Source: Philodulcilactobacillus myokonensis
GTDB taxonomy: Bacteria; Bacillota; Bacilli; Lactobacillales; Lactobacillaceae
Assembly: GCF_027923585.1 (NCBI RefSeq)
Contig: NZ_BRPL01000004.1
Location: 124,001 to 188,000, forward strand
DNA: 64,000 nucleotides
Direction: 5' to 3'
The translations under genes and the position numbers were made by a program. The notes beneath the pieces were generated by a model. That model made no database searches. It worked only from the letters and a program-made list of their open reading frames with translations, and had not been told where the DNA came from. The stretch's first letter is position 1; each line of letters starts with the position of its first letter. Positions 49,135-58,707 of this stretch are shown here, one piece after another.

Positions 49135-49994
49135 TCAACCATTCTTAGCTAAACTCTTAAATACACTTGCATTAATAAAACCAGTATTGTGAATTTTAAT
49201 TTGTCCCACATATTCAGATAATTCACCATTTTTTAATAAATAAACAATGTGGCTGCCGATACTGTCACCATCAATATTAATAATATTATAACTAATTGTA
49301 TCGTTATAATAATGACGATGCGGATTCCGGCAGTCGATATGATAAGCGGTTGAATCACCAGTTACGTTCAAAATATTACCACGAATAAAACTGGTCGGGG
49401 AATGAACATGCCCAGCAAAAATAGCTTTGACGTTACTTCCACCGATCACATGATATAAATCCTTTCCATTTTGGAGAATACTATACTTCATATTTTTTAA
49501 TGGGGGGCGTAAGGAAGATGGTGCATAAAAATGATTGCCGGATGATCAGATTGACTTAGCCTTTCACCCAACCAATTTAATTGTTTATAATCCAAATATC
49601 CCTGCTCAATATTATTAAAATTTGTATCTAAAAAGTAATAATCATAATCAGATGAAGTAATTTGATAATAATATTTATCTTTGGACTTTTGTTTTAGATA
49701 ACCCCGATAAAAGGCCTTCGTTCGATCATGATTACCTAAAGTGACATAGATGGGCATTTTAAGCCGGTCTTGCTTGCAACTGATCATTTTTTTAAACGCA
49801 CAGTAATCTGCGATGTTTCCCTCATGAATTAAATCATCAGTGATAGCAATAAAATCAGCTTTTAAATGGTGCCTTTTAATATCTCTAAAAACAAGATCTA
49901 ATTTCTCATTCGGGCTAAACCGCTGTTTCATCTGTTTAGCACCAGTCGAATTTTTTAAATGCGTATCAGTAATCTGAATTATATTGTGCTGCAT
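49135..49994 (-). pseudogene. Metallophosphoesterase, split at a G6 run
   Basis: Calcineurin-like phosphoesterase in two frames. First part from ATG 49994 (AGGAG upstream touches the earlier ATG 50003): QITDTHL (D-x-H), ITDDLIHEG, LGNHD and FMHHLPYAP. Then a run of six C on the coding strand (plus G6 at 49502-49507) shifts frame and stops. One extra C joins PLKNMKYSILQNGKDL to the second part with FAGHVHSPTS, the last metal motif. Complete length about 287 aa, cpdA-like. Base-call error, slippage switch or decay. Confidence 0.82.
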
Positions 49995-50029
49995 AAACTT
50001 CATCTCCTACTGGTTTAAGACTAGCAAAT

Positions 50030-51619: not shown

Positions 51620-51901
51620 ATGAAGAAGAAACATAGTAAATTAAAATTTCTTATTTCATTAACTGCCGGATTAGCTTTATTTTCAACTAGTATCGTAAAT
51701 GCTAGTGCAAAAAGAGTTAGAGTAAGTTATGATTATGATAGAAACGATTATACTGGATCAATGTCTCATTTTACACATGTAAAATGGATGAATGTAGGAA
51801 AACATGCACATGTAGTTGATCATTTTGATAAAAGAATTAAAGGAGGAGGTTGGAATTATAAAAAATATTCTCGTCATAACATTCGGAACGAAACTAACTA
51901 A
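51620..51901 (+). CDS. Small secreted basic peptide, exporter-linked
   Basis: 93 aa from ATG 51620 (AAAGAGTGAG upstream; GTG 51611 is less likely). Signal peptide KFLISLTAGLALFSTSIVNASA, leaving a mature peptide of about 62 residues (KRVRVSYDYDRN... GGGWNYKKYSRHN), very basic, with seven His and several Tyr/Trp, and no Cys. Followed 93 nt on by a permease-ATPase-permease ABC set. This order resembles lactococcin 972-like bacteriocin loci, but I see no convincing sequence match to that family. Confidence 0.7.
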   Translation: MKKKHSKLKFLISLTAGLALFSTSIVNASAKRVRVSYDYDRNDYTGSMSHFTHVKWMNVGKHAHVVDHFDKRIKGGGWNYKKYSRHNIRNETN

Positions 51902-51994
51902 TATATAAGTAAAATATAGGCATTATAGAGTCAAAATGTAATTCAAGTTATTATGATGCTTATATTTTTTACATTTTGACTAAGGAGAATTTAA

Positions 51995-53116
51995 ATGACA
52001 TATTCACAGTTTACAATTAAATCCATTTTAAAAAGTAAAATGAACATTTTCTTCTTGATAATTTTACCAATTTTTACGGTTATTTTCCTTTTTGTAAATC
52101 TCAGTGCTCAAAAACAGGATACCATTCAATATAATGCTCAACAATCATATTCATTTAATCAATCAGAAGCTCAGCATATAATAAAAAATAAAAAGCATCT
52201 AAAAAAAGGTGAAGTTGAGGTTATTCCTGAATACGTTATGTTAGCTAAAGAAAACAAAGCTATTTTAAATGGCATCCATAAAAATAATTGGAATCAAGTT
52301 TATAGTAAGCAAAAAGAGGTTAACAATCATTTAAACGCCGAAGGTAACCCAGCCTCTTTTACGCATGAATTAAAAAGAAATAATTTACTTATGGATTACC
52401 TTAAATCCAATCATATTAAATCACCAGAATCAGAAAGTTATCCGACCCATAATTTAACGTTTAACCTCTGGATGGATAACTTTATCATCCCTATCGTCTT
52501 ACTTTTAGTTATGATATTCATATTGAGCAATACATATTGTAAAAGTTATTCGGACAAAATTAATAAGGATCAACTAATGCCAATGAGTTTGAATCAACAA
52601 GCATTCCACAAACTAACGATTGGAACATTAGGATTTTCCATTTATTATTTTATGATTAACGTTTGGAACCTCATTATAAGTTCAATTATGGTTGGCGGAA
52701 TTGGTTTTAACTACCCCTATTACATTCATAATGGAAAACAAATGCAATACATTTCTCTAATTAACATCTACTGGAAAGCATTTATTTTACAAATATTTTC
52801 AATTTTATTTATAACTAGTTTTATTTATCTAGTAACCATCATCTTCAAGAAAAGAATCACGGTTATTTTCATTAATATCATCGCTTTAATCGGACTTAGT
52901 TTCTGTGTTCATATTTTTGATTTTCTTCAAGGAATTGCTAAATTGATACCAAGTACTTATTTTGATACTGTTGGCATTGTCTCCAATAATTCAATGAATT
53001 TAATTAATAAAACATCCTTTAGTTCAGGATTAATGGTCTTGATTATATCTTCTGCAATTGTAATGTTATTAATTGCTTTAATAAACAAACTTAATACTAA
53101 AGAAGGTCGATTTTAG
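51995..53116 (+). CDS. ABC permease A with extracytoplasmic loop
   Basis: 373 aa. Helix 1 near residues 17-35, then about 125 polar residues outside, then five or six helices (from NFIIPIVLLLVMIF on). ABC-2-like. The ATG follows AAGGAG. Its stop TAG overlaps the GTG of the ATPase gene by one base. It resembles the third gene in layout and in segments such as GGIGFNYPYYIHNG vs GSGSINYPITAF and YLVTIIFKKRI vs YLVIIICKNRI. Confidence 0.75.
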   Translation: MTYSQFTIKSILKSKMNIFFLIILPIFTVIFLFVNLSAQKQDTIQYNAQQSYSFNQSEAQHIIKNKKHLKKGEVEVIPEYVMLAKENKAILNGIHKNNWNQVYSKQKEVNNHLNAEGNPASFTHELKRNNLLMDYLKSNHIKSPESESYPTHNLTFNLWMDNFIIPIVLLLVMIFILSNTYCKSYSDKINKDQLMPMSLNQQAFHKLTIGTLGFSIYYFMINVWNLIISSIMVGGIGFNYPYYIHNGKQMQYISLINIYWKAFILQIFSILFITSFIYLVTIIFKKRITVIFINIIALIGLSFCVHIFDFLQGIAKLIPSTYFDTVGIVSNNSMNLINKTSFSSGLMVLIISSAIVMLLIALINKLNTKEGRF

Positions 53117-53736
53117 TGGCACTAGAAGTTAAAAATTTATCAATCTCGTTCCCGCATTTAAGGGTCATCAATAATTTTACCTATCAATTTAATCAAAATG
53201 GACTTTACCTGTTCGTCGCTACCAACGGATCCGGCAAAACATCTATTTTTAGGTCAATTTTGGGATTAATTCATTCTAAAAATAATGGCATTACAATTGA
53301 TGATAAACCAATGGCTCAAATGCGACGAAGCGTTTTTTACTATGAAAGTTCCAACTGGTTTGATATCAATATGTCTGGGATGGACTACCTTAAGTTAATT
53401 AAAACCCAGTGGAAATCAAATGTTAAGATTAATGCCGTTATCCACTTTTGGAAAATGGAAAACTACGTAAATAAATCGATTCGTAAATATTCATTGGGGA
53501 TGAAACAAAAGCTCTTAATCGCTCTTTATTTAATTAGTGATGCTGACTATTTAATCATGGATGAAATTAATAACGGTCTGGATGAAGATAGCAGGAAGAA
53601 ATTATTAAAGAAATTAAATGAATTATCTCAACATAAATGCATCATTATTTCTTCCCACTACAAGGATGAAGTTTATCCCTATGCTGATAAAATTTTAACC
53701 ATTAAAGACCACGAGGTGATCAATGACAACCATTAA
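53116..53736 (+). CDS. ABC transporter ATPase of the peptide-linked exporter
   Basis: 206 aa, short and single-domain. Walker A ATNGSGKTS (about 37-45; T where most have G or P), signature YSLGMKQK (about 123), Walker B YLIMDEINNGLD (catalytic Glu kept), H-loop SSHYKDE. GTG start overlapping the permease A stop; its end overlaps permease B by 14 nt, so all three are translated as a block. Confidence 0.88.
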   Translation: MALEVKNLSISFPHLRVINNFTYQFNQNGLYLFVATNGSGKTSIFRSILGLIHSKNNGITIDDKPMAQMRRSVFYYESSNWFDINMSGMDYLKLIKTQWKSNVKINAVIHFWKMENYVNKSIRKYSLGMKQKLLIALYLISDADYLIMDEINNGLDEDSRKKLLKKLNELSQHKCIIISSHYKDEVYPYADKILTIKDHEVINDNH

Positions 53737-54733
53737 TTACACTTGTTTCTTATTTAAAAGATTCATCAAAAATAAACTCAATTTAGGGTTAATACTGATC
53801 ATCCTAATTATTCTAATTTCAATGATGATTACAAATGTTAAATCTGGTAATGACGACATGCAGAATCATCTAAATCACTTTGGATATAGTCAAAATTATC
53901 GAAGAAGTTATCATAATTTAATCCAATATAACAACAAGATAATGATTAAAAGTAATTCACAAGACATCACTAATCAATTAAGCAATGATAATGAATTATT
54001 AAATTATCTTTATCAGAATAATATTCAATACGAATCAAGCAGTCATCCGACTACTTCTTACGGATTTATGAAGGAAGCTAACAATAGCTATATAACTGGA
54101 TTTACATTATTAATTATCATTTTCATGATAATTAATCTCTTTTCAAATAACTATATTGAAAGAATGAATATTAGTAAATTACTTCCGATGAATCGATTCA
54201 AAAAAGATTTTATTAGTATTATTTTTTCATTTTTATTATATGGATTTCTATGGATTATTTATAATGTCTTTAGTTACATCCTCGGTCTAATCATTTCCGG
54301 AAGTGGCAGCATTAATTACCCCATAACAGCATTCATAAATGATATTCATAATGGAAGCTACGTTAATTTCGGCTCTTTGATTCCGCATATGATAATCATA
54401 AAATCAATGTTCATGTTATTTATTGCTTGTTTTGTTTACCTAGTTATTATCATATGTAAAAACAGAATCATGGCACTTTTTTCAGCTCTATTTATCAGTT
54501 TTGGTTTAATTATTTCATCGTTACTATTTGCTCCAATCAGTCGAATCGCCCAATGGATTCCATTTTCATTTTTTAATGGAAATGATATCGTTACACTTGT
54601 ACTAGGTCATAGCATTGATAATGCAAAATTAAATTACCAAAATGGAATATTGATCTTAGGAATATCCATTGTCATAATATTAATCATTCTCATTTTAAAA
54701 AATATTTCTGTAAACAAAATTAAAAGGATCTGA
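53723..54733 (+). CDS. ABC permease B with extracytoplasmic loop
   Basis: 336 aa, same plan as permease A: helix near residues 19-36, about 85 polar residues, then six helices. Likely forms the heterodimeric membrane part with permease A. Ends 9 nt before a terminator, closing the operon. Confidence 0.75.
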   Translation: MTTINYTCFLFKRFIKNKLNLGLILIILIILISMMITNVKSGNDDMQNHLNHFGYSQNYRRSYHNLIQYNNKIMIKSNSQDITNQLSNDNELLNYLYQNNIQYESSSHPTTSYGFMKEANNSYITGFTLLIIIFMIINLFSNNYIERMNISKLLPMNRFKKDFISIIFSFLLYGFLWIIYNVFSYILGLIISGSGSINYPITAFINDIHNGSYVNFGSLIPHMIIIKSMFMLFIACFVYLVIIICKNRIMALFSALFISFGLIISSLLFAPISRIAQWIPFSFFNGNDIVTLVLGHSIDNAKLNYQNGILILGISIVIILIILILKNISVNKIKRI

Positions 54734-54781: not shown

Positions 54782-55663
54782 TCATTCTTCATATTCAACT
54801 TGCATCGTTTTCATTGGTTTAACGTGATGATGCTTTAGATAATGCATTCCCTTTTTAGCATAGCTTAAATCACCAAGCGGTCCAAAATGGATTCGATTAG
54901 TCTTAAGATTGTAAGTAATTTTAGTAATTCCAGCATTTGGAATGGCTTCATGTGATAAAATATCTCGATCATGTCGACTCAAATTATGATCATACTCAGA
55001 GAGGTATGCACTGATACTATCAGCAGAACTTACGACCAAAGCATTTTTCCCGTGCTTTTTATTCGTATCCTTAGCAACCATTCTAATACCTTTTGACATC
55101 CGATTAATTACCTGGTTTGCACTTTCCGCTCTCGGAATGCTACTGGCATTATGATCTAAATTATGAATTGCTTGGTTAACCTGATCAACATAATGAATGC
55201 CAAATCTTTGATGCAGTTCTGCTTTATTCTTCACATGAAAATAGTTACAAATCAACTGGTCTTCTTTCGGCCAAGTTATCATTTCATACTTACCACCGCC
55301 AGCTTCTCTAAACAACGGTGTTTCGTGAACAATTACTCTTCCATTACCAGAGTAATCGAGCATGTTCTTCATCGTATCCATCTGACGAACCAATTTTCCA
55401 CAAGCAACTTCCGTGAAACGAATGCCGTGTAAACCAGCACCGACTTCGCGGGCAACTTGTATTCCATGACTAGTGAGTGGGTAATCATCCCATCCCTCAT
55501 CCAACTTCATCACATTCCCTGCCGTTTGTCCATGGCGGGCTAAATAAATCGTAACGATTTTAGGATGTGTTCGGCGAACCCGTTTAGCATTTGCCATTTT
55601 AGGCGTCATCAAAACTAAAATGGTCATTAAAAAAATCAAACCAATTTTAACAAATTTATTCAA
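54782..55663 (-). CDS. Secreted histidine phosphatase-like protein
   Basis: 293 aa. Signal peptide (IGLIFLMTILVLMTPKMANA), then a phosphoglycerate mutase-like fold: YLARHGQTAGN (RHG motif, about residue 43), ACGKLVRQMDT, HETPLFREAGGGKYE. The second catalytic His, normally in VSHG, is replaced in ALVVSSADSISAYL (about 207-220), so activity is doubtful. A truncated copy lies directly upstream. Confidence 0.85.
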   Translation of the reverse strand: MNKFVKIGLIFLMTILVLMTPKMANAKRVRRTHPKIVTIYLARHGQTAGNVMKLDEGWDDYPLTSHGIQVAREVGAGLHGIRFTEVACGKLVRQMDTMKNMLDYSGNGRVIVHETPLFREAGGGKYEMITWPKEDQLICNYFHVKNKAELHQRFGIHYVDQVNQAIHNLDHNASSIPRAESANQVINRMSKGIRMVAKDTNKKHGKNALVVSSADSISAYLSEYDHNLSRHDRDILSHEAIPNAGITKITYNLKTNRIHFGPLGDLSYAKKGMHYLKHHHVKPMKTMQVEYEE

Positions 55664-55772
55664 AAACTTTCCAACCCTTCATAAATAGTCTATTACTATT
55701 TTAACAAAATTAACGTTAATAACGTGTCATTAGTTAAGAAATTTTAAATATGGCTAAATTATGATATTATTT

Positions 55773-56168
55773 CTATAATACGGTAACATTACTATTGTTC
55801 GAATAATCAAGCATATCTTTAATCGTATCCAAATGTCTGATTAGCTTACCGCAAGCAGCATCCGTGAAATGAATGCCACGTAGCCCAGCACCGACATCTT
55901 TAGCAACCTGATCACCCTTTGGAGTCAATGGGTAGTCATCCCAACCTTCATCCAGGGTCATCACGTTCCCAGTTGTTTGGCCATGCCGGGCTAAATAAAT
56001 TGTAACAGTATTGCGTTTGGCTCTCGAACGATGAACATGTTTTGCACTTGCCATTCCTGAACCGAGAAACAAAAACACTAGCAAACCAATTAAGCCAGAA
56101 GCTTCAATCATTCTTCTAATTTGATGCAACTCAATCCCACCTTTCTTGGTACAATCATAGAGTAACAA
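55773..56168 (-). pseudogene. Truncated tandem copy of the histidine phosphatase
   Basis: 131 aa at most (TTG 56129, behind AAAGGTGGGATTGAG, gives 118). It repeats the N-terminal half of the neighbour: YLARHGQTTGNVMTLDEGWDDYPLT, AGLRGIHFTDAACGKL and MLDYS, preceded by a signal peptide (GLLVFLFLGSGMASA). It ends abruptly at SNVTVL with no trace of the rest downstream. Likely a duplication cut by deletion, lacking half the active site. Confidence 0.75.
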
Positions 56169-58332: not shown

Positions 58333-58707
58333 TTACCTATGAGATGATGGCCGATGAAGTGATAGCCACTTCGAGCTTGAGCGATTAACGACCCAGAAAT
58401 CAGTACTGGTATTTCGGAATTTCTTACCCTTAATGTACCACGGGTAACTAGTCCTGGTTCCCATTACAAATACTTTTGAACCACGTTTGATCCGTTTAAG
58501 TTGAATTCGTTGTCCTTGATATATTGGATTAACACAGTGAATTCTTTCAGCTATCACATGGTGCTTAAGATACACCCTGCGATAAGTCCGCCAGTAATGA
58601 TTTTTTATTCCTGGAACCGAACTAGCACGGGCATTGTTAGCAACGCCAAATGTCATAATGACGTTAATCACCGCCATCAATGTAATTAATAGTTTCTTAA
58701 AATTCAT
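58333..58707 (-). CDS. Secreted basic SLAP/KxYK-like protein
   Basis: 124 aa. Signal peptide (LLITLMAVINVIMTFGVANNARA), then a strongly basic mature part with VYLKHHVIAERIHCVN, YQGQRIQLKRIKRGSKVFVM and YPWYIKGKKFRNTS, the beta-strand pattern of lactobacillus cell-surface SLAP/KxYK-type modules. Probably binds cell-wall polymer. A start of the cluster of secreted proteins to its right. Confidence 0.65.
   Translation of the reverse strand: MNFKKLLITLMAVINVIMTFGVANNARASSVPGIKNHYWRTYRRVYLKHHVIAERIHCVNPIYQGQRIQLKRIKRGSKVFVMGTRTSYPWYIKGKKFRNTSTDFWVVNRSSSKWLSLHRPSSHR

Follow-up and report, generated by a model that had tools for sequence, protein, structure and literature searches.

A secreted peptide family linked to ABC-2-type transporter genes in Lactobacillales is a candidate bacteriocin with its own self-protection pump

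What does a small secreted peptide do when its gene stands next to a set of ABC transporter genes, and what does the transporter do to the peptide? The question is raised by a locus of Philodulcilactobacillus myokonensis that lies in a 64,000-nucleotide stretch of its genome, here called the window. A preliminary description of this DNA had placed four genes there, for a peptide, a permease, an ATPase and a second permease, and all four open reading frames (ORFs) are present (Table 1). In our view the peptide is best read as a bacteriocin that leaves the cell by Sec and acts on the wall or membrane, with a type V ABC pump for self-protection, a proposal that we hold with somewhat more confidence than doubt and in which we infer the killing activity.

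The three ABC genes overlap by 1 base at the permease A stop and ATPase start (TAGTG) and by 14 bases between the ATPase and permease B, so they look translationally coupled, much as the earlier claim that they are translationally locked had it. A gap of 93 bases separates them from the peptide gene, for which the ATG was used as start; a GTG lies three codons upstream. No regulator was found beside the operon, and no histidine kinase or response regulator lies next to it. The surrounding minus strand carries a phosphoesterase-like gene that is read as two consecutive ORFs of 168 and 118 aa and so may be interrupted (49135-50003), two adjoining secreted histidine-phosphatase-like genes of which the second (131 aa) is apparently shortened (54782-56168), and a further small secreted basic protein of 124 aa and no known family (58333-58707).

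Table 1 Features of the peptide–ABC locus, in window positions
Feature	Position	Strand	Evidence
Secreted peptide gene, 93 aa	51620..51901	+	ORF; profile match in own genome, E 5.9e-34; predicted four-strand model
Inverted repeat, 13 bp, perfect; arms 51929-51941/51969-51981, AGTCAAAATGTAA/TTACATTTTGACT	51929..51981	+	sequence
Permease A, 373 aa, predicted ABC-2/type V, helical ectodomain after TM1	51995..53116	+	model mean pLDDT 80.6
ABC ATPase, 206 aa	53116..53736	+	PF00005, 58.9 bits, above cut-off
Permease B, 336 aa, permease A paralogue, shortened ectodomain	53723..54733	+	28% identity; phmmer E 4e-26; alignment

Translation of the peptide gene bears out the description of a Sec-type signal followed by a His/Tyr-rich mature part of 62 residues that lacks Cys. 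Residues 1 to about 30 (ending VNASA) comprise a Lys-rich n-region, a hydrophobic core and an ASA-type cleavage region, and the basic mature peptide of about 62 residues is rich in His, Tyr and Lys. Full-length relatives also carry a Sec-type signal, judged by eye, as in the window peptide, from the Lys-rich n-region, the hydrophobic core and an AxA-type site. Pfam, NCBIfam, PHROGs and PADLOC returned no meaningful score for the peptide or the permeases, and only the ATPase was recognised among the four genes by Pfam and NCBIfam. A match to an ordinary wall-protein family, which the preliminary description had named as grounds for abandoning its idea, did not appear: the peptide matches none.

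Searching 398 Lactobacillaceae genomes with the one sequence brought up distant matches, and a profile was built from those that had adjoining ABC genes. Because the window peptide and six relatives were thereby already in the profile, the independent evidence for a family consists of the members found afterwards. These come from several Lactobacillaceae genera and from other families of Lactobacillales, and include Streptococcus suis, S. oralis, S. mitis, Vagococcus fluvialis, Lentilactobacillus hilgardii and Listeria floridensis; Holdemanella biformis, found by pattern, is the sole member outside the order. In a class-wide sample of 230 genomes, the peptide was found only in its own genome and in one Streptococcus. 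Given a profile E value of about 1e-34 and relatives in other genera, the window peptide is, judged by sequence, no chance ORF but a true, diverged member of an unnamed family.

The family core reads V-x-K..Y-D-x-N..TG...GGGWNYxRY...YYxGGY. Asn42, Trp78 and Asn79 are invariant (21/21 alignment rows), the GGGWNYxRY box occurs in most of the 21 rows, and YYxGGY forms the C-terminus of many members from Lactobacillaceae and streptococci. The window peptide retains the box but ends in IRNETN, which marks it as a divergent member, and with YYxGGY lost it may act differently or be on its way to decay. Divergence across the family is rapid, at about 25% identity. Plasmid and phage collections held no match to the peptide, and thus gave no sign of recent mobility. 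In the open-access literature, which leaves most subscription journals outside, we found no paper describing the family.

The peptide and its transporter genes are closely tied. Among 31 loci fetched for neighbourhood reading, all 24 in which the profile matched a peptide over at least 60 positions at E<1e-6 had the same type of ATPase and an ABC-2 type of permease adjoining, with exceptions in form only where the ABC genes are fragmented (L072) or the permease is split (L058). Most Lactobacillaceae and streptococci have the order peptide–ATPase–permease(–permease); peptide–permease–ATPase is found in the window, L056 and L057, ATPase–permease–peptide in Listeria-type loci, and divergent orientation in L066 and L074. 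The two loci that share with the window both the order of the genes and a second permease shortened in the same way (L146 and L147) lack the peptide altogether. One Listeria-type genome carries the ATPase–permease–peptide cassette in two tandem copies (L073:6585-14495).

Several of the wider neighbourhoods are of a kind linked to competition. In S. suis, a ComR-type regulator (PF18710 ComR_TPR, 190 bits) stands upstream of the cassette and a lactococcin-972-type pair downstream (L063; TIGR01654, 285 bits, and TIGR03608, 267 bits, both above cut-off); TIGR01654/TIGR03608-type pairs with scores below cut-off adjoin the cassette in L056 and L135. Rgg-type regulators are found by L065 (Rgg_C) and, as a weak match, by L076, and none of the copies read has an adjoining histidine kinase or response regulator. 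The idea that the S. suis TIGR01654 protein serves as the new peptide's own immunity protein is weakened, as a lactococcin 972 gene that is truncated at its 5' end and has no signal peptide intervenes between the cassette and the pair (L063:4225-4407). Because this gene precedes it, the pair belongs to a neighbouring weapon cassette, and the adjacency may be mere clustering of weapon genes. The window's own genome has, on another contig (C2, L172:3335-6276), a TIGR01654-like membrane protein of 760 aa (85.5 bits, below cut-off) and a MacB-type ATPase, beside which no lactococcin 972 peptide is evident; they make a second orphan immunity-like pair in this genome.

How far does the likeness to lactococcin 972, suggested earlier from gene order, extend? 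It was also said that no clear sequence match is seen, and the PF09683 search was indeed empty for the window peptide and six relatives at E<=10, and it found nothing in the genome. Neither permease matched TIGR01654, the ATPase scored 53 bits against TIGR03608 (cut-off 254.85), and hhalign of the peptide profile with 11 lactococcin 972 members gave a probability of 15%. Membership by sequence is therefore rejected, and what stands is a likeness in how the cassettes may work; the peptides might still share a deep ancestry. As in the lactococcin 972 family (PF09683; streptococcin B scbABC, mediterrocin), the peptide appears to be Sec-exported, Cys-free, unmodified and, here by prediction, all-beta, at 60-70 residues, with presumed ABC-type self-protection genes downstream. 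In both, immunity-type genes outlast the peptide in part of the population and there are links to ComR and competence (PMC11796350); the roles of the lactococcin-972 B and C genes are themselves still only presumed (PMC11796350). The two differ in that sequence homology is undetectable, in that GGGWNY lies near the C-terminus here and GGxWxYG at the mature N-terminus there, and in partners, an ATPase with one or two ABC-2 permeases here against a 7TM DUF1430 protein with a MacB-type ATPase there.

The structure of the peptide was modelled with AlphaFold2 from 11 sequences. The model has four beta strands (residues 31-42, 48-59, 64-77 and 80-90) with block-mean pLDDT of 85-94 over residues 31-90; three of the five models agree in confidence and the other two are much lower. 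Foldseek found no significant match to it among solved structures, and a sequence search of solved structures with the peptide or permease profiles gave chance matches only. The peptide could still be a far-diverged lactococcin 972 of the same fold and ancestry that has an ABC-2 pump as partner in place of the 7TM/MacB-type pair, a variant of the bacteriocin reading that is compatible with it. The two share similar size, a Sec signal, an all-beta and Cys-free make-up, SNYH-like and aromatic C-terminal motifs and neighbourhoods, and an SN-(Y/F) motif falls in register in the weak profile alignment. We nevertheless consider this ancestry doubtful, given the low hhalign probability, the empty PF09683 search, the GGxWxY motif at the other end of the mature peptide and the structure of lactococcin 972 (2LGN), which is in the PDB sequence set but not among the Foldseek matches listed.

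Alternatively, the peptide might be a non-toxic secreted envelope protein with a part in wall binding, stress or adhesion, and the ABC set a co-transcribed envelope-stress or detoxification pump. The window encodes other small basic secreted proteins, and ABC-2 pumps have envelope-stress roles too. Such a role is unlikely, however, for a family of patchy distribution and such rapid divergence, in which the peptide alone decays (see below), ComR/Rgg regulators and lactococcin-972 cassettes lie nearby, and Pfam and NCBIfam find no wall-binding domain.

The model of permease A matches the folds of NosY (Z 18.0), ABCA1 (Z ~16-17) and PmtD (Z 16.1), its matches overall running at Z 15-18 over 220-243 residues at 3.1-3.7 Å, and by this predicted fold permease A is an ABCA/NosY/PmtD-kind permease, that is, an ABC-2/type V ABC exporter. 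By sequence, one relative gave a weak match to PF12698 (26.3 bits, cut-off 31.6), and a search of genome contigs directly with permease A gave no match. Both permeases had been described with a large loop after helix 1; this holds for permease A (about residues 40-155), whose insertion after TM1 is of about 115 mostly helical residues, whereas permease B has a loop with some 50 fewer residues. The position of the ectodomain, between TM1 and TM2, is that seen in ABCA1, although identity to the ABCA/NosFY type V proteins is about 10% and the ectodomain here consists of those roughly 115 residues. The best NCBIfam model for the ATPase, TIGR03740 of LanFEG, scored 96.1 bits, below its cut-off of 309.75. 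One ATPase with two differing permeases for self-immunity, as proposed here, recalls LanFEG, but no lantibiotic modification genes lie nearby and the permease A loop is large. The Pmt models NF047568 and NF047565 gave 84.8 and 70 bits, far below cut-offs of 375 and 350.

PmtD belongs to a transporter that exports phenol-soluble modulins and gives immunity to them. PmtABCD likewise joins an ATPase to an ABC-2 permease for the cell's own toxic peptides, as we propose here, the permease A fold matches PmtD at Z 15-16, and PmtC is the second-best NCBIfam match of the ATPase. Phenol-soluble modulins are, by contrast, leaderless, helical and Pmt-exported, whereas the peptide here is presumably Sec-exported, and permease A has an ectodomain. 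If the ABC transporter were a dedicated secretion route that exports or finishes the peptide, as a bacteriocin or pheromone, the nearly constant linkage and the export of modulins by the same transporter class (PmtCD) would fit. With a Sec signal on its full-length members, however, the peptide would need no dedicated exporter.

The ABC genes also occur without the peptide. A permease profile matched 30 of the 398 Lactobacillaceae genomes at E<1e-40, and 10 of these have the peptide, leaving two thirds without a recognisable one; in 19 of the 20 remaining genomes, which were inspected, the ATPase adjoins the permease and no peptide was found, not even as a short piece in any of the six frames. 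Within the mitis group of streptococci the peptide frame is cut short or interrupted in most copies, among them those of S. pneumoniae, where the cassette lies between comEC and infC, S. mitis and S. pseudopneumoniae, whereas the ATPase and permease frames stay open. Across six copies with a decayed peptide, the ATPase has a median pairwise dN/dS of 0.09 and the permease one of 0.40; the transporter thus remains under purifying selection. The preliminary description held that ABC genes found widely without the peptide would speak against it, and they are so found; yet as the peptide decays beside conserved ABC genes, the pattern favours immunity over export and does not count against a bacteriocin. 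A dedicated exporter would lose its purpose with the peptide, whereas an immunity pump would stay useful, and linked genes that persist in this way have the look of immunity retained without its toxin. Export is accordingly quite unlikely. Streptococcin B offers a parallel, 27.5% of pneumococci retaining scbBC without scbA (PMC11796350). The reverse of the usual decay was seen in S. oralis CR140 (L086:6297-6868), where the peptide is intact and the ATPase is in two overlapping ORFs.

The other half of the earlier proposal, a peptide-sensing system in which the peptide would serve as cue and the ABC genes would take part in signalling in the manner of a Bce-type flux sensor, fits the large ectodomain of permease A and the ComR/Rgg regulators beside some relatives but is very unlikely, as neither the copies read nor the window operon has a histidine kinase or response regulator alongside, the permeases are of ABC-2/type V and not MacB/BceB type, and a beta protein of about 62 residues is large for a cue.

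The gap between peptide and ABC genes may hold a control element. The inverted repeat ends just 5' of the AAGGAG ribosome-binding site of permease A, and is a possible mRNA attenuation or processing element. The window gap folds at z -2.0, with a competing hairpin as the predicted minimum-energy fold, and a scan of it found no standard terminator. Most related loci have hairpins in this gap, several of them terminator-like with unrelated sequences; when compared with dinucleotide shuffles, 10 of 14 loci have a z of about -2 or below. The L057 gap has a terminator-like hairpin, although the whole gap is not significant, and the gaps of L064, S. mitis (L092) and Holdemanella (L089) are short and unstructured. 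The hairpins probably serve to set the peptide and the ABC genes at different levels of expression.

The signal peptide, linkage, orphan and decay pattern and neighbourhoods thus fit a bacteriocin with ABC self-immunity, the part of the preliminary proposal that fares best. Lactococcin 972 inhibits septum formation by binding lipid II. Here, Sec would export the peptide. Once outside, it would fold into a small beta protein of four strands and attack the envelope of Gram-positive competitors, most of them relatives, the likeliest guess for its target being a wall precursor such as lipid II. The A–B permease pair on an ATPase dimer would shield the producer by pulling the peptide out of the membrane or the zone of the wall precursors, or driving it away from there, with the ectodomain of permease A aiding removal, and the hairpin is so placed that it could permit an excess of peptide over immunity genes.

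The pneumococcal copy behind comEC is SPV_2257/SPV_0846, which we take to be SP_0957/0958. It is induced with the late competence genes and marked secondary (PMC6560143). More tentatively, at somewhat less than even confidence, we propose that these peptides form a separate class of unmodified beta-sheet bacteriocins of Lactobacillales, non-homologous to lactococcin 972, with a type V ABC immunity pump whose ectodomain lifts the toxin from the membrane's outer face, and that the competence regulon of pneumococci contains the immunity half as an orphan. If the bacteriocin reading is true, the bacteriocins known from lactobacilli, streptococci, vagococci and listeriae would be joined by an undescribed peptide family, a candidate function could be given to the pneumococcal genes behind comEC, and immunity to a folded extracellular protein by an ABC-2 pump would become testable.
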